The position numbers and the translations under genes were made by a program. This document shows, piece after piece, positions 7,205 through 62,175 of a stretch of 64,000 nt of DNA; position 1 is the stretch's first letter; every line of letters begins with the position of its first letter. Origin of the DNA: Alphaproteobacteria bacterium. Lineage in GTDB: Bacteria; Pseudomonadota; Alphaproteobacteria; Bin65. The stretch covers positions 1 through 64,000 of the forward strand of contig JAJEGH010000044.1 in NCBI GenBank assembly GCA_022819985.1, given 5' to 3'. The notes beneath the pieces are model-generated. The model searched no databases, had not been told where the DNA came from, and saw only the letters and a list, made by a program, of their open reading frames with translations.

Positions 7205-7236
7205 TTGACTTGAGGAGCAAGGAACATTAAATGAAC
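7205..7236 (+). promoter_or_regulatory. Promoter-like TTGACT with overlapping LexA-type box GAAC-N7-GAAC (copy 1)
   Basis: TTGACT at 7205 is followed 17 bases later by TAAATG, and the two GAAC half-sites at 7222-7225 and 7233-7236 are exactly 7 bases apart. Alphaproteobacterial LexA recognises a GAAC/GTTC direct repeat with a 7-base spacer, and an SOS operator overlapping the -10 is a normal arrangement. Reading is rightward, toward and antisense to the 3' end of the SDR gene. No obvious gene lies downstream; the 18-codon ATG ORF at 7231 is not convincing. A matching copy lies at 29753-29783 on the other strand. Confidence 0.6.
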
Positions 7237-7303
7237 ATAAGATGTGAGAGCGGCTTGTCCGGTGGCGAAAGAAAACCTATCCGGTGACGAAAAAACGCTA
7301 TAT

Positions 7304-7317
7304 ACAGACCGGTCTGT
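7304..7317. promoter_or_regulatory. 14-bp perfect palindrome ACAGACCGGTCTGT (TetR-type operator candidate, copy 1)
   Basis: ACAGACCGGTCTGT is a perfect inverted repeat preceded by an A-run (AAAAAACGCTATAT). Perfect palindromes centred on ACCGGT are typical TetR-family operators. The same core AGACCGGTCT, preceded by AAAAAACGGTAGAT on the matching strand, recurs at 29649-29658. No TetR-family gene is present in the window, so the cognate regulator is unknown. Confidence 0.5.
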
Positions 7318-7423
7318 CCACTTTTGATCGAGCGGAAAATGGCGCAATTCCGGGGTTTGTGCGGAAAAGGAAAATGAACGATCGCTAAAGAATGGAGAAG
7401 TAGCAACCCGATTCGACGCTGCC

Positions 7424-26236: not shown

Positions 26237-27223
26237 TTATTGTTCCAGATCGAGGTCGAACAGGCGGATTGCGTTGGTCCGGCCGATCTTGAGGCGGTCG
26301 CTGTCGGCGACGGTCGGTGTCGCGTCGTACCATTTCGCGGCGTCCTCCATGCGCTCGAAGGGATAGTCGGCGGAGAAATAGACCCTGTCAGTGCCCATCA
26401 CCTCGACGGTGCATTTGAAGGCGGGATCGTTGAAGAAGCCGCTCGTCGTGATGTGGAAATGCTCGACGAAATACTCGCCGAGCGGTCGCTTGCCGCGATA
26501 ACCGCGGGGCGAAAACCGCATCCGCGCGTCGAGCCGCCACAGGGCGAAGGGGATGTTCTCGCCGAGATGGCCGACGGCGATCCGCAGGTTGGGATAGTCG
26601 TCGAACAGGCCGGAGCCGCACAGGCGCAGCGCGTGGATCGAGGTCTCGACCGCGAAGCCCCAGGGCGCACTCATCAGCCAGGCATGGCCTTCGTAGTTGC
26701 GCGCCTGGGCCGGGATCTGCATCCGCGGATGGAGATAGAACGGCACGTCGAGTTCCGAGACGGTGGCCCAGAAACTGCGGTACTCGGGAATGTCGTAATA
26801 GATGGCGCTGTCCGGCTCGTCCTTCTGGGTGAAGCCGTTGACCATCGCGCCCTTGAAGCCGAGCTCGCGCACGCAGCGGGTGAGTTCCGCCGACGCCGCG
26901 TCGGGATCCTGCATCGGCAGCGCCGCCAGGCCGGCATAGCGCTGTGGATAGCGGGCCGCCGCCTCGGCGATCTTGTCGTTGGCCTTGCGGGAGACGGCGA
27001 TCGCCTCGCCGGTATCGAGGATGCCCTGGACGGCCGGCGCGTTGAGCGACAGGAGCGCGAAGTCGACGCCGCAGCGTTCCATTGCCTCGATGCGCCGTTC
27101 GCTCACGTCCAGCAGCTCCCGGGTGAATTCGTCCCAGCGCCCGGATTCGCCGGCGAAATGCCGGGAGCCGCCCAGGGTCTCCTCGATCGCCATATGCTCT
27201 TCGAACGCGATCTTGCCTTGCAT
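26237..27223 (-). CDS. Amidohydrolase 2 family, gamma-resorcylate-decarboxylase paralogue 1
   Basis: A 328-residue metal-dependent decarboxylase-type TIM barrel of the ACMSD/gamma-resorcylate decarboxylase group. Putative metal and catalytic residues are present: Glu8 and His10 in FEEHMAIEE, His in PFYLHPR, His in VGHLGEN and Asp in FSADYPFE. It resembles the divergently encoded paralogue but is more diverged at the active site (SADYPFER versus STDWPFEN) and in the N-terminal 40 residues. Its substrate may therefore differ from 2,6-dihydroxybenzoate. It heads the minus-strand catabolic block. Confidence 0.87.
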   Translation of the reverse strand: MQGKIAFEEHMAIEETLGGSRHFAGESGRWDEFTRELLDVSERRIEAMERCGVDFALLSLNAPAVQGILDTGEAIAVSRKANDKIAEAAARYPQRYAGLAALPMQDPDAASAELTRCVRELGFKGAMVNGFTQKDEPDSAIYYDIPEYRSFWATVSELDVPFYLHPRMQIPAQARNYEGHAWLMSAPWGFAVETSIHALRLCGSGLFDDYPNLRIAVGHLGENIPFALWRLDARMRFSPRGYRGKRPLGEYFVEHFHITTSGFFNDPAFKCTVEVMGTDRVYFSADYPFERMEDAAKWYDATPTVADSDRLKIGRTNAIRLFDLDLEQ

Positions 27224-27255
27224 CGATATCTCCCTCCGGATGCCGTCCGCGTGCG

Positions 27256-27364
27256 GGAATGCGGCCCGTGCCGCGGCTTCGCCTATCCGTTTATCCCAGA
27301 TGGGCCGGGCCGTCGAACGGCCATCTGCTGCGTCGGGGCAAAGAAAAGCATGGAATGCGGCCCG
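27256..27364. promoter_or_regulatory. 13-bp direct repeats in the divergent decarboxylase promoter region
   Basis: GGAATGCGGCCCG occurs at 27256-27268 and again at 27352-27364, in the same orientation, within the 185-base divergent intergenic region. One copy is 33 bases from the minus-strand start and the other 45 bases from the plus-strand start. They may be binding sites for a regulator controlling both paralogues. An imperfect inverted pair (GATGGGCCG and CGGCCATC) lies between them. Confidence 0.35.
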
Positions 27365-27408
27365 GCTGCCCTTACGATGCGGCGGTCAGGGGAGCGCCGG
27401 AGGGAAAG

Positions 27409-28398
27409 ATGGACGGCAAGATCGGCCTGGAGGAGCATTTTGCCATAGCGGACACATTGCAGGATTCGGCGGGGTTCCTGCCGCCGGAAACCTGGCAGGA
27501 ACTGTCGGGCCGGCTGGTCGATCCGGAGGAGCGGCGATTGCGCGAGATGGACGCGAACGGCATGGAAACGATGATCCTGTCGCTCAACGCGCCGGCGGTC
27601 CAGGCGATCCCGGACGTCGCGCGGGCGGCCGACGTCGCGCGCCGGGCCAACGACGATCTGGCGGAGAAGGTCGCCCGCCGGCCGGACCGCTTCCGCGGAC
27701 TTGCCGCCCTGCCGCTGCAGGACCCGGATCTCGCGTCGGCGGAACTGACCCGCTGCATCCGGGAACTCGGCTTCGTCGGCGCGCTGGCCAACGGGTTCTC
27801 CGAGATCGAGGGCAGCGACGCGCCGCTCTACTACGACCTGCCGCAATACCGGGCCTTCTGGGCGGTTTGCGCCGAACTCGGCGTGCCCTTCTACCTGCAC
27901 CCGCGCAACCCGCTGCCGCAGGACGCCCGCATCTACGGCGGCCATCCCTGGCTCATGGGGCCGGGCTGGGCGTTCGGCCAGGAAACCGCCGTTCATGCCC
28001 TCCGGCTCATGGGCTCCGGCCTCTTCGACGACCATCCCGATTTGCAGATCATCGTCGGCCATATGGGCGAGGGCCTGCCCTTCAACATCTGGCGGGTCGA
28101 CAACAAGAACGCCCGGACGAAGAAACCGGGAAGCAGCGGCCCGCAGCCGGCGCAGAAGAGCTTTACCGAATATTTCCGCGAGAATTTCCATATCACCGTG
28201 TCGGGCAACTACTGCACCGAGGCGTTGCTCTGCTCGATGCAGGTCATCGGCGCGGACCGGATCCTGTTCTCGACCGACTGGCCGTTCGAGAATGTCGACT
28301 ATTCCGCCGCCTGGATGGACAGCGTCGACATCGACGAAGCCGACCGCCTGAAGATCGGCCGCACGAACGCGCTCAGGCTGTTCGGTCTTGGCGGCTAG
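27409..28398 (+). CDS. Gamma-resorcylate decarboxylase (2,6-dihydroxybenzoate decarboxylase)-like amidohydrolase
   Basis: A 329-residue protein very similar in pattern to characterised gamma-resorcylate decarboxylases: N-terminus KIGLEEHFAIADTLQDSAGF, then METMILSLNAPAVQAIPD, VPFYLHPRNPLPQDARIYGG, VGHMGEGLPF and FSTDWPFEN. These contain the metal-ligand Glu8, His10 and barrel His and Asp residues. It would decarboxylate a dihydroxybenzoate to resorcinol without an organic cofactor. The start is chosen at an ATG just downstream of GGAGGGAAAG; the 50-residue upstream extension in the track is not protein-like. An acyl-CoA dehydrogenase gene follows after 12 bases. Confidence 0.9.
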   Translation: MDGKIGLEEHFAIADTLQDSAGFLPPETWQELSGRLVDPEERRLREMDANGMETMILSLNAPAVQAIPDVARAADVARRANDDLAEKVARRPDRFRGLAALPLQDPDLASAELTRCIRELGFVGALANGFSEIEGSDAPLYYDLPQYRAFWAVCAELGVPFYLHPRNPLPQDARIYGGHPWLMGPGWAFGQETAVHALRLMGSGLFDDHPDLQIIVGHMGEGLPFNIWRVDNKNARTKKPGSSGPQPAQKSFTEYFRENFHITVSGNYCTEALLCSMQVIGADRILFSTDWPFENVDYSAAWMDSVDIDEADRLKIGRTNALRLFGLGG

Positions 28399-28410: not shown

Positions 28411-29553
28411 ATGCAGCTCAGCGAGACCCAGCGGCAGATCCGGGAATCGGCCCGCGCCTTCGCCGCGCGGGCGATTGCGCCCCATGCGGCGGAATGGGAC
28501 CGTCAGGAGGGCGCGCCGCGGTCCGTGCTGCGCGAGATGGCCGAAGTCGGCCTGATGGGCGTCATCATCGATCCGGCCTGGGGCGGCGCCGGCGCCGATT
28601 TCGTGTCCTACGCGCTCGCGCTGGAAGAGATTTCGGCGGCCGACGGCGGCATGTCCAACATGATGGCGGCGAACAACTCGCCGGTTGCGGCGGCGATCCA
28701 GGAACACGGCACCGAGCGCCAGAAGGCCGAATACCTGACCAAGCTCACCTCCGGCGAATGGATCGGCTGCATCCATCTGACCGAGCCCCACACCGGCTCC
28801 GACGCCGCGGCGATCCGCAGCCGTGCCGAGAAGGTCGACGGCGGCTGGCGGCTCAACGGCCACAAGGCCTTCGTCACCGGCGGCGCCACGGCGGAGCTGG
28901 CGATGATCGTCGCGGTCACCGACCCGGCGGCCGGCAAGCGCGGCATCTCCGTCTTCGTCACGCCGACGGACAATCCCGGCTACCGGGTGATCGCGGAAGA
29001 GCGCAAGCTCGGCCACCGCACCAACGATACGGCGCAGGTCGTCTTCGAGGACATGGCCGTGCCGGACGCCGACCTGCTCGGCGCGGAGGGCCGCGGCCTC
29101 GGCATCGCGCTCGCCAACCTCTCCGCCGGCCGGATCGGCGTCGCAGCCCAGGCGGTCGGCGGCGCCCGCGCGGCGCTCAAGGCGGCCCGCGACTATGCGA
29201 AGAAGCGCGAGGCGTTCGGCCGGCCGATCGCCGAACACCAGGCCATCGCCTTCAAGCTGGCGGACATGGCGACGCAGATCGAGGCGGCGCGCCAGCTCTA
29301 CCTCCACGCCGCTGCGCTCCGGGATGCGGGGCGTGCGTGCGCGGCCGAGGCCTCGATGGCCAAGCTCTTCGCCTCGGAGATGGCGGAGCGGGTCGCCTCG
29401 GAGGCGATCCAGATCCACGGCGGCGCCGGGTTCCTCAACGATTTCCCGGTCGAGAAAATCTATCGCGACGTCCGGGTCTACCGGATCTACGAGGGCACCT
29501 CCGAGATCCAGAAGATCATGATTTCCCGCCATCTCGATTCGCTGGACCTGTAA
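28411..29553 (+). CDS. Acyl-CoA dehydrogenase (short/branched-chain type)
   Basis: A 380-residue acyl-CoA dehydrogenase with all standard motifs: ALEEISAADGG, LTEPHTGSDAAAIRS for FAD, LNGHKAFVTGG, IQIHGGAGFLNDFPVEKIYRD and the catalytic Glu in IYEGTSEIQ. The canonical Glu makes it a normal homotetrameric enzyme, unlike the pair at 8.4-10.8 kb. It is preceded by the decarboxylase gene at 12 bases, so the two are probably co-transcribed. Chain-length preference cannot be stated. Confidence 0.93.
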   Translation: MQLSETQRQIRESARAFAARAIAPHAAEWDRQEGAPRSVLREMAEVGLMGVIIDPAWGGAGADFVSYALALEEISAADGGMSNMMAANNSPVAAAIQEHGTERQKAEYLTKLTSGEWIGCIHLTEPHTGSDAAAIRSRAEKVDGGWRLNGHKAFVTGGATAELAMIVAVTDPAAGKRGISVFVTPTDNPGYRVIAEERKLGHRTNDTAQVVFEDMAVPDADLLGAEGRGLGIALANLSAGRIGVAAQAVGGARAALKAARDYAKKREAFGRPIAEHQAIAFKLADMATQIEAARQLYLHAAALRDAGRACAAEASMAKLFASEMAERVASEAIQIHGGAGFLNDFPVEKIYRDVRVYRIYEGTSEIQKIMISRHLDSLDL

Positions 29554-29648
29554 CGCGCGGCCGGATCGAAGAAACGGACATTATTCCTGTATTTTTGGCT
29601 TTTCGTTCAAATTTGTTCCCTTGTTTTTCAAGGCGTTACGAATCAGAC

Positions 29649-29658
29649 AGACCGGTCT
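29649..29658. promoter_or_regulatory. AGACCGGTCT palindrome (TetR-type operator candidate, copy 2)
   Basis: The core AGACCGGTCT is identical to that at 7306-7315. The extended sequence GACAGACCGGTCTATC is a 16-bp palindrome with one mismatch. On the minus strand it is preceded by AAAAAAACGGTAGAT, closely matching the flank of copy 1. It lies about 95 bases past the acyl-CoA dehydrogenase stop. Confidence 0.5.
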
Positions 29659-29752
29659 ATCTACCGTTTTTTTGCCGGGCGGGGGGCGCCGCGGCCCGGC
29701 GGAACGGATGTTACGGAACGGCCGCCCGGCGGGCCGGTGCGGGACGATTTAT

Positions 29753-29783
29753 GTTCATATAATGTTCCATTGCGGGAAGTCAA
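29753..29783 (-). promoter_or_regulatory. LexA-type box GTTC-N7-GTTC with TTGACT promoter-like hexamer (copy 2)
   Basis: GTTC at 29753-29756 and 29764-29767 are separated by exactly 7 bases; on the minus strand this is GAACATTATATGAAC. TTGACT lies at 29778-29783 (minus), 16 bases before TATATG. The arrangement TTGACT, LexA-type box, AT-rich tract, AGACCGGTCT is the same as copy 1, but inverted. Transcription would run leftward, antisense to the end of the acyl-CoA dehydrogenase gene. Confidence 0.6.
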
Positions 29784-29864
29784 ACGCTTTTTTCCGGCGT
29801 CCGCGCCATTCCGGCAGGGCACACACCCCCCTCCCGTCATTCCGACCGGAGCGCAACCCCCCAA

Positions 29865-30011
29865 CCGTCATTTCGACCGAGCGAAGCGAGCGGAGAAATC
29901 TGGCCAGCGACGGGGGCCGGCCAGAGGCGCAGCCCTGTGGCGTCGATGGAGCGTTCTCCAGATTTCTCCACTCCGCCCCGGCTTGCGCCGGGGCTCCGGT
30001 CGAAATGACGG
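29865..30011. repeat. Terminal-inverted-repeat intergenic element, copy 1
   Basis: The left end CCGTCATTTCGACCG and the right end CGGTCGAAATGACGG are perfect inverted repeats. Further in, GGAGAAATCTGG and CCAGATTTCTCC also pair, so the whole 147 bases can fold into a long hairpin. A related fragment (CCCGTCATTCCGACCGGAGC) precedes it at 29833. A second full copy lies at 61984-62121. No ORF is encoded, so it is a MITE- or REP-like element without its own transposase. Confidence 0.85.
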
Positions 30012-30026
30012 ATGGGGGTGGGAATG

Positions 30027-30066
30027 TGTCAGGAAATGTCATGAAATGTCAGGAAGTGTCATGGCG
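30027..30066. repeat. 10-bp phased repeat, cluster 1 (4 units)
   Basis: TGTCAGGAAA, TGTCATGAAA, TGTCAGGAAG and TGTCATGGCG follow one another with a strict 10-base period; TGTCAGG and TGTCATG alternate. The period is about one DNA helical turn. A related array starts at 30284, so the two clusters flank a 217-base segment. Confidence 0.8.
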
Positions 30067-30187
30067 CTTCGGGTTCGCACCGAGCGCACCGCCGTGTCGC
30101 CCCGGCCCATAGCGTGGTGCTGCCAAACAGTGTCGCGCCGGACGTGATCCGGCGTCCAGAGCCGCCCGGCGCGATCTTCGCGGTCGG

Positions 30188-30231
30188 CCCCTTCGACAAG
30201 CTCAGAGCCTGTCCTGAGCTTGCCGAAGGGG
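30188..30231. repeat. Stem-loop repeat with CTTCGACAAGCTCAG arms
   Basis: The arms CCCCTTCGACAAGCTCAG and CTGAGCTTGCCGAAGGGG are 18 bases long with one mismatch and enclose an 8-base loop. The same arm sequence forms the outer right end of repeat copy A near 7125-7146. Short palindromes of this form are widely scattered in GC-rich alphaproteobacterial genomes. Confidence 0.8.
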
Positions 30232-30283
30232 CAGGCTCTGGGCCCCGGATCAAGTCCGGGGCGGCAAGGGAGGGGTGGTGAAA

Positions 30284-30353
30284 TGTCATGGTGTGTCAGG
30301 AAATGTCATGTTGTGTCAGGTTCCGTCGGGAGATGTCGGGCTCGGTCCTGTCC
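30284..30353. repeat. 10-bp phased repeat, cluster 2 (7 units, decaying)
   Basis: Units start at 30284, 30294, 30304, 30314, 30324, 30334 and 30344. They read TGTCATGGTG, TGTCAGGAAA, TGTCATGTTG, TGTCAGGTTC, CGTCGGGAGA, TGTCGGGCTC and GGTCCTGTCC. The first four alternate TGTCATG and TGTCAGG exactly as in cluster 1; the last three keep the period while the sequence decays. The array ends about 100 bases before the NUDIX stop codon. Confidence 0.8.
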
Positions 30354-30453: not shown

Positions 30454-30903
30454 TTACCCCCGCCGCTCGCGCGACAGCGCGATGATGCGCAGGGTTTCGC
30501 TCCACAGGCCGTAGGGGGCGAGGGCGTCGGGATCGGCCCATTCGGCGTGTTCGGCGTCGCTGGCGGCGGCCGGTTCGCCGGCGATCCAGTCGGCGTCGAA
30601 ATCGACCAGGGTGTATTGCAGCGTGACCGCGCCGCTCTCGTCGCGCCGGATGGTGTCGACCACATCGAGCAGCGCGCCGAGGCGGATCTCCAGGCCGGTC
30701 TCCTCCCGGACCTCGCGCATAGCGGTCTCGCGCACGGTCTCGCCGAGCTCCTGCCGGCCGCCGGGCAGGCTCCAGCGCCCGCGCATCGGGGATTTGCCGC
30801 GCCGGATCAACAGCACCCGGCCGCCTTTCCAGACGACGACGCCGACCCCGACGACCGGACATTCGGGCGGACATTCGGGCGGCCTGCTTGCGGCGCCGGT
30901 CAT
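30454..30903 (-). CDS. NUDIX hydrolase
   Basis: A 149-residue protein with a complete Nudix box, GGRQELGETVRETAMREVREETG, at about residues 48-72. The preceding strand RGKSPMRGRWSLPGG is of the ADP-ribose/8-oxo-dGTP type. It hydrolyses a nucleoside diphosphate linked to another moiety, using Mg2+ held by the REEXXEE glutamates. The start is the ATG at 30903, 10 bases downstream of the protease stop. The longer track ORF continues into the protease gene in another frame. Substrate is unassigned. Confidence 0.9.
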   Translation of the reverse strand: MTGAASRPPECPPECPVVGVGVVVWKGGRVLLIRRGKSPMRGRWSLPGGRQELGETVRETAMREVREETGLEIRLGALLDVVDTIRRDESGAVTLQYTLVDFDADWIAGEPAAASDAEHAEWADPDALAPYGLWSETLRIIALSRERRG

Positions 30904-30913
30904 CCGCGCCGCC

Positions 30914-31834
30914 TCACGCCGCGGTGCAATAGACCAGCGCCACGGTGAGCCGCTTGCGCAGGTCCGCGCCGACTTCGGGAAAATTCCGCCCGTCGATCGC
31001 GCCGCGCCGGCCGCCGCTGCGTTCCGCCGGCGCGCCGGAGCGTTCCAGCGCCGCGGCGATCGAGGCCAGCGCCGTGGTGAAGATGCGCCCGCGCCGCTTC
31101 GATCCCGCCACGGTGACGCCGATAATCGTGCCGCGGCCGTCCATCGCCGGCCCGCCACTGATGCCGCCCAGGCCGCCGTAACTGTCGGGCACGCGCACCC
31201 GGTCGGCCCAGGCGACCACCGGCTCGACGACATTGTAGCGCCCGACCGAGCGCATGCGCCGCCGCCCGATCAGGACGGACTGGATGGCGGCTGGCCGGCC
31301 CTTGGGATAGCCGAAATGGTAGCCGGTCTGGCCGCGCCGCAGCGTCTGCTGCGTGAACGCCACCGCCGGCGCGCCGCCGCTGGTCTGAAGCACGGCGAGG
31401 TCGGCGCGCGGATGGATGTAAGTCCGGCGGACCCGCACGCCGCGCTTCGGCCCGGTGACGATCAGCACCCGGGCGCAGCCGTCCACGACATGGCGCGCCG
31501 TCATCCACACGCCGCGCCGGTCGAGGGAGAAGGCGGTGCCGATGGAGTTGCGCTTGTCGGACGGGATGGCGACGCTGAACGCCGGGTCGCCGGCCGACGG
31601 CGCCCGGAGGCTGCCCCCCCGGCTACCTTGGCCGCCGGCGTCCTGCGGCGGCTTCCAGGCTTCGCGCCGGGTCCCCTGGTTGTCGGCTTCATCGCGGCGC
31701 ACGAACTGTCCGGGGTCGGGCCGGCGCATCCGGTTGTCCTCGCGCGCATGCCTTGCGTCCTCCGGCGCCGTCGTCAGGTCGAAGATGCCGGCGAGCGCGA
31801 CGATCAGGAGAACGAGGAAGGGCAGGCTCCGCAT
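30914..31834 (-). CDS. Trypsin-like (S1) serine protease, membrane-anchored or exported
   Basis: A 306-residue protein with an N-terminal hydrophobic segment (residues 4-20) serving as signal peptide or anchor, then a low-complexity Arg/Gly/Asp-rich linker (25-80) and a chymotrypsin-fold domain. The triad is His115 in MTARHVVDG, Asp145 in HPRADLAVL and Ser226 in GGISGGPAMD. It lacks a PDZ domain, so it is not a classical DegP. It lies 31 bases downstream of the DUF350 gene and 10 bases upstream of the NUDIX gene, probably one operon. Confidence 0.87.
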   Translation of the reverse strand: MRSLPFLVLLIVALAGIFDLTTAPEDARHAREDNRMRRPDPGQFVRRDEADNQGTRREAWKPPQDAGGQGSRGGSLRAPSAGDPAFSVAIPSDKRNSIGTAFSLDRRGVWMTARHVVDGCARVLIVTGPKRGVRVRRTYIHPRADLAVLQTSGGAPAVAFTQQTLRRGQTGYHFGYPKGRPAAIQSVLIGRRRMRSVGRYNVVEPVVAWADRVRVPDSYGGLGGISGGPAMDGRGTIIGVTVAGSKRRGRIFTTALASIAAALERSGAPAERSGGRRGAIDGRNFPEVGADLRKRLTVALVYCTAA

Positions 31835-61874: not shown

Positions 61875-62175
61875 GGCGGCCGGCCGGGATGCTGTTGAAC
61901 GGCCGGACGGTTGTAGTCCCGCCGCCGGCGGTTGGAAAGCCGCAGCGCAAGGCTCCGGGCACAGGAGATCTGCATCCGTTGTCCCGTCATTTCGACCGGA
62001 GCCCCGGATTCATCGGGGCGTAGCGGAGAAATCTTTCCGGTACGGCACTTCGGGTCCCGGTAATGTGCAGGAATGATATATCCGCTTCGCAGGCCTGCGG
62101 CCTGCTCCGGTCGATATGACGATGGACGTCGACGCGGAGCGATGGTGGGCAGCGCCACGGCAAGAGGCTTCGCCG
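61875..62175. other. Intergenic region upstream of the acyl-CoA dehydrogenase, mostly repeat
   Basis: The only structure in these 300 bases is the terminal-inverted-repeat element at 61984-62121. It separates the divergent-looking acyl-CoA dehydrogenase start from the dienelactone hydrolase stop on the same strand. No gene or clear promoter is visible. Confidence 0.6.
61984..62121. repeat. Terminal-inverted-repeat intergenic element, copy 2
   Basis: The left end CGTCATTTCGACCGGAGC and the right end GCTCCGGTCGATATGACG are inverted copies with one mismatch in 18. An inner CCCCGGATTCATCGGGG hairpin and the diagnostic GGAGAAATCT occur in the left half. It is the same family as 29865-30011 but with a different centre and no matching GGAGAAATCT on the right. 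Confidence 0.82.

Follow-up and report, generated by a model that had tools for sequence, protein, structure and literature searches.

In our reading, the short phased arrays of TGTCAKG units (K = G or T) described here are probably the conserved connector in a dispersed, BIME-like intergenic mosaic specific to one genus and, at the same time, a putative cooperative protein-binding site. Their most informative feature is that each array is the joint between hairpin modules. The arrays are dispersed, confined to one genus, placed between genes and uniform in strand, and the modules that they border are gained, lost and swapped with breaks in the first array; at one locus chosen by synteny, the core of the unit changes slowly relative to the linkers.

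Phased arrays and hairpin modules in one intergenic region

The window, that is, the whole stretch of 64,000 nucleotides that was analysed, carries two arrays in the 900-bp region between convergent acyl-CoA dehydrogenase and NUDIX hydrolase genes. The features of this region are:

28411–29553, plus strand: left flanking gene, acyl-CoA dehydrogenase (Pfam PF00441/PF02771)
29645–29660, no strand: AGACAGACCGGTCTAT palindrome, a separate dispersed repeat with some loci in common with the arrays
29753–29767, plus strand: GTTCATATAATGTTC box, elsewhere often shortly past the last array; possible minus-strand promoter
29866–30010, no strand: hairpin module H1, with a CGTCATTTCGACCG head at 29866 that faces its own reverse complement ending at 30010
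30027–30063, plus strand: phased array 1, four TGTCAKG units with a period of exactly 10; orthologous array in the sister species G002
30131–30266, no strand: hairpin module H2, between both arrays, with nested stems around CTTCGACAAGCTCAG...CTGAGCTTGCCGAAG
30284–30353, plus strand: phased array 2, seven units (four intact, three decayed) with a period of exactly 10
30454–30903, minus strand: NUDIX hydrolase gene on the right flank (Pfam PF00293, matched with the longer ORF 30454–31233)

Array 1 reads TGTCAGGaaa TGTCATGaaa TGTCAGGaag TGTCATG, and array 2 reads TGTCATGgtg TGTCAGGaaa TGTCATGttg TGTCAGGttc CGTCGGGaga TGTCGGGctc GGTCCTG (30284–30350, with the last linker extending to 30353). The first-pass annotation had claimed a strict 10-base period within each cluster, kept by the second even as its sequence decays, and both statements hold, with all seven units of array 2, three of them decayed, still 10 bp apart. 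The distance from unit 4 to unit 5, across the two arrays, is 227 bp, which leaves one cluster out of helical register with the other. The window gave eight two-unit matches (≤2 mismatches) where 0.5 were expected, and none of 100 shuffles reached eight; together with the reversed-pattern control on the genome given below, this excludes a chance origin. The alternation of the two unit variants, also claimed initially, is present at the window locus but is not the rule, as neighbouring-unit pairs across 169 arrays were TT in 233 cases, GT in 78, TG in 34 and GG in 21.

H1 precedes array 1 and H2 separates array 1 from array 2. The DNA fold of 29860–30020 (H1) reached −59.9 kcal/mol (z −7.9) and that of 30064–30283, which spans H2, −74.6 kcal/mol (z −6.7), with 0/200 shuffles as good in either case. 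The heads of H1 are CGTCAT at 29866 (plus) and 30010 (minus), a facing pair, and the module folds as one long stem in which single REP units are not separated. The array itself was rejected as a hairpin, having no stable fold (z −1.2), and an Rfam search for RNA families gave no credible match. A further facing pair of GTCATTTCGACCG-type heads lies at 61986–62120 of the window, without arrays.

Genes neighbouring the arrays in the window encode an amidohydrolase, the acyl-CoA dehydrogenase, the NUDIX hydrolase, a trypsin-like protein and a DUF350 protein, and no integrase or att core was found among them. Two diverging amidohydrolase-like genes adjoin each other at 26237–28398, the second of which also matches a neighbouring copy in G002 (53% identity). 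Two further dispersed sequences accompany some of the arrays. The GTTCATATAATGTTC box, GTTC-N7-GTTC followed by a conserved TCAAG, occurs at 25 sites in the own genome, with a second window copy at 7222–7236, and many copies sit a short way beyond the final array of their locus. We take it to resemble the alphaproteobacterial LexA box, and with its TCAAG it would possibly form, on the other strand, a promoter of the type CTTGAC...TATATG. The AGACAGACCGGTCTGT palindrome has about 58 sites in the own genome (window copies at 29645–29660 and 7302–7319), many with a longer conserved flank in common (TTTTTCGCAGTTTTCC...GAATTAGACAGACCGGTCTGTC...TTTTTTT), and it may represent either another dispersed repeat or a regulon of TetR-like type.

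Distribution of the array

The own genome (4.04 Mb) contains 36 three-unit sites and no match to the reversed control pattern. Five of six congeneric genomes hold 10–20 three-unit arrays each, and the congener G006 holds zero; these draft assemblies each consist of many contigs, whose ends often fall at the repeats. A class-wide sample of 289 alphaproteobacterial genomes gave matches in this genus only, and a second genus of the family has a single match. Among the matches listed in a scan of named genomes, most were to Rhodospirillaceae/Alphaproteobacteria assemblies, some with sponge-derived names, and the remainder were scattered, Dyadobacter and Thalassospira among them; judging from record names alone, the array-bearing genus is probably sponge-associated. 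No earlier description of the array was found in the literature searched (open-access only).

Relatives of the window arrays are present at homologous sites, as the first-pass annotation had proposed to check. It had also set out what would mark a minisatellite, namely uniqueness to the strain, absence of relatives and variable copy number; neither uniqueness nor absence of relatives applies, although the arrays do differ in their number of units (2 to 10). A simple one-locus minisatellite was rejected, given that the arrays are dispersed, the units ordered and the core near-invariant with variable linkers.

Phased arrays of related appearance were also seen further afield. Dyadobacter, of an unrelated phylum, has 10-bp-phased TGTCA arrays between genes (L098, L099, L111, L114, L132 and L141), several of which are then followed by an inverted TGACA array. 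Two small viral contigs carry long TGTCAGGCGA arrays interrupted by CGTTAYRCGC (L358, 3333–3545; L366, 5410–5592).

Anatomy of the composite loci

We collected 169 arrays in 81 loci, most of which were fetched because they bear arrays. Array size ranges from 2 to 10 units and is mostly three, and the consensus for arrays of three or more units is TGTCATGAAATGTCATGATTTGTCATG. All arrays within a locus point in the same direction (0/169 on the opposite strand), and none of the 169 lies inside a called gene. Unit types are ordered, the first unit usually ending in AAA and the last more often starting with C. Gaps between arrays are mostly 40–600 bp with no genus-wide 10-bp preference, and helical phase is kept inside an array, not between arrays. 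The arrays alternate with modules, and motifs that classify a segment as a hairpin were found in 57/88 inter-array segments and were absent from 31/88.

The first array often starts no more than about 150 bp from the left gene, whatever the strand of that gene, and flanking gene pairs are on the same strand in 36 cases, convergent in 19 and divergent in 11; because neighbouring genes lie on either strand, there is no visible regulatory polarity.

Conservation of core and linkers

Position 2 of the unit is G in 489/490 units and position 3 is T in 489/492, while position 6 is T in 393, G in 96, C in 11 and A in none of 500 units; these tallies come mostly from array-selected loci, so that the conservation of the motif is partly selected. 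A position 6 that is nearly keto-only would suit reading of the major groove by a protein.

The cleaner test is the sister locus in G002, a single locus fetched by synteny with a neighbouring gene and not by its array. Ten units align with the window without indel, including all seven units of array 2 in register. Core positions 2–5 and 7 differ at 2/50 sites and the linkers at 16/30 (P 5e-7), with position 1 differing in 5/10 units and position 6 in 2/10. The helical phasing proposed at the outset is real within an array, and the orthologue keeps it despite the drift of its linkers. Among arrays with both flanks homologous, positions 1–5 and 7 differ at 8/336 sites, linkers at 17/111 and flanks at 9%, a set mostly chosen for its arrays and therefore with a core figure biased downwards. 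Spread by gene conversion could make arrays look conserved without selection.

Exchange of modules between species

Orthologous loci differ by whole modules. Locus L266 of G001 has four arrays and its counterpart L272 in G003 has two, the missing stretch running from array to array. L246 of G004 and L287 of G005 have the outer arrays and flanks in common, with unrelated modules between them, and the first module is replaced likewise between L262 of G001 and L270 of G003. On the left side, interspecies homology reaches the first array and breaks off within it: homology ends facing the composite fell within an array in both species in 12 of 17 comparisons, with about 2.5 (about 15%) expected (nominal P 3e-7, the 17 comparisons sharing some loci and representing about 11 independent sites). 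Right-hand ends fell within arrays in both sequences in 0/5 cases. No clean empty site was found at the orthologous site in G001, G003 or G004, because the neighbour beyond the NUDIX gene differs. Recombination between repeats and insertion directed at arrays would each keep the strand uniform.

Alternative explanations

The most serious alternative, which we regard as improbable though well worth weighing, is that the arrays are neutral repeat debris, a minisatellite that no protein binds, hitch-hiking in REP-type mosaics and spread by slippage, template switching and gene conversion. Such debris would accommodate the range of unit numbers, a restriction to one genus that is common to many bacterial repeats, and the right-hand homology ends outside arrays, which imply that modules recombine elsewhere too. 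It accounts poorly for the nearly unchanged cores and drifting linkers at the orthologous G002 locus, for a position 6 that is nearly always T or G, with a few C and no A, and for an order of unit types unlike that of pure slippage. Far less credible, and set aside here as very unlikely, is that the repeats are what is left of an iteron-like replication or partition site, one of the readings first suggested for them. Phased direct repeats in two clusters do recall such sites, but the two clusters are mutually out of phase, no replicon or par genes are among the window flanking genes, and the array is a dispersed intergenic repeat with dozens of copies over many contigs, which here lies between acyl-CoA dehydrogenase and NUDIX genes.

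It is also doubtful that the arrays are operators through which a regulator controls nearby genes, the hairpin modules being bystanders, although the geometry of the arrays speaks for it. The Mollicute MraZ site, (AAAGTGKN3)3 with K = G or T, is bound by an octamer (PMC5282649), and like the arrays it consists of three direct repeats of 7 bp plus 3 bp, with period 10 and one K position. The genus has its own 10-bp-phased operator, TTCCATGAAATCCCATGATATCCCAT..., in the mraZ upstream regions (L378, L372, L374, L375, L377 and L379), whose linkers match those of the arrays and to which G004 and G005 add a fourth unit, CGTCATG. These regions are the best array-like sequence outside arrays: the array profile gives them 0.4 to 9.4 bits in the species that carry arrays, against −1.7 for the top-scoring of about 749,000 non-array positions. 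The arrays, however, have the core TGTCAKG and never TCCCATG, the CCC core (TGGG on the other strand) being absent from array units, and they occur in dozens of copies that are not upstream of mraZ. The mraZ-type pattern is found at most once per genome and mraZ has its separate operator; by sequence, therefore, the arrays are not MraZ operators proper, and this candidate was rejected. The arrays also have no favoured position relative to gene starts, and to have several of them per locus, with modules swapped between them, is atypical of operators.

Proposed mechanism and comparison with known systems

Under the favoured explanation, a connector of an intergenic mosaic that is also bound by protein, the element is a string of short same-strand arrays, usually of three 10-bp units, parted by interchangeable modules, many of them hairpins. 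Modules would move through recombination between arrays or insertion directed at them, and the array would be retained since a protein binds its units cooperatively along one side of the helix, like the MraZ ring or an Xis filament. A function as a protein-binding joint is likely in our analysis, and the match in geometry with MraZ operators and Xis-type sites makes a cooperatively binding protein, or a complex that bends DNA, plausible. More speculative, and in our judgement rather a long shot, is a dedicated nucleoprotein complex on the arrays, with an MraZ-like operator, that would shuffle hairpin cassettes among intergenic sites without a RAYT transposase. Among candidate proteins, the AbrB/MazE type has 6–9 matches per array-bearing genome against 1 in the array-free G006, which is suggestive at most, the array-free side being a single, smaller genome and most proteins of this type being antitoxin-like.

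As an intergenic mosaic of palindromes and linking sequence in many copies per genome, the element resembles bacterial interspersed mosaic elements (BIMEs) and the CGTC-tagged REPs, which are typical of alphaproteobacteria, occur as facing pairs and have no dedicated transposase (Di Nocera et al. 2013, PMC3733652). The latter have a CGTC or TGTC head followed by AT, a stem of 8–9 bp, a loop of 4–5 and a CCA-like tail (PMC3733652); H1 likewise bears facing CGTC heads followed by AT, and, folded as one stem, its hairpin is longer than the described stems. What sets the present element apart from both is that the linker is a phased multi-unit array, on one strand per locus, at which modules are exchanged. 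The CGTC-REP head nearly equals the array unit YGTCAKG, which may reflect common ancestry or common recognition. A Y1/RAYT transposase (PF01797) had no match in the own genome, G001, G002, G005 or G006 and one modest match each in G003 and G004, and, being absent from the own genome, it was rejected as the mover. How the CGTC-type palindromic repeats, widespread in alphaproteobacteria, have spread is an open question (PMC3733652), and a phased element at the exchange sites of such modules offers a concrete site and sequence with which to seek the protein responsible.

The arrays also resemble Xis/RDF sites such as that of phage 186 Apl, where direct repeats likewise follow one another head to tail at a spacing of one helical turn; in RDFs such repeats have a part in recombination and are bound cooperatively (PMC7498355). 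In contrast to those sites, the window arrays have no adjoining integrase gene. Two IMG/VR contigs (L353, 6202–6228; L357, 1066–1092) carry a TGTCAKGNNN array of period 10 between a DUF1492/sigma70 region-4 gene, which it follows directly, and an HNH gene; it is possibly a phage control site. These prophage arrays have the same units but differ in being found at one site per contig looked at, beside phage genes and with no such modules noticed alongside. The design of direct repeats one turn apart thus recurs across unrelated bacteria and prophages.
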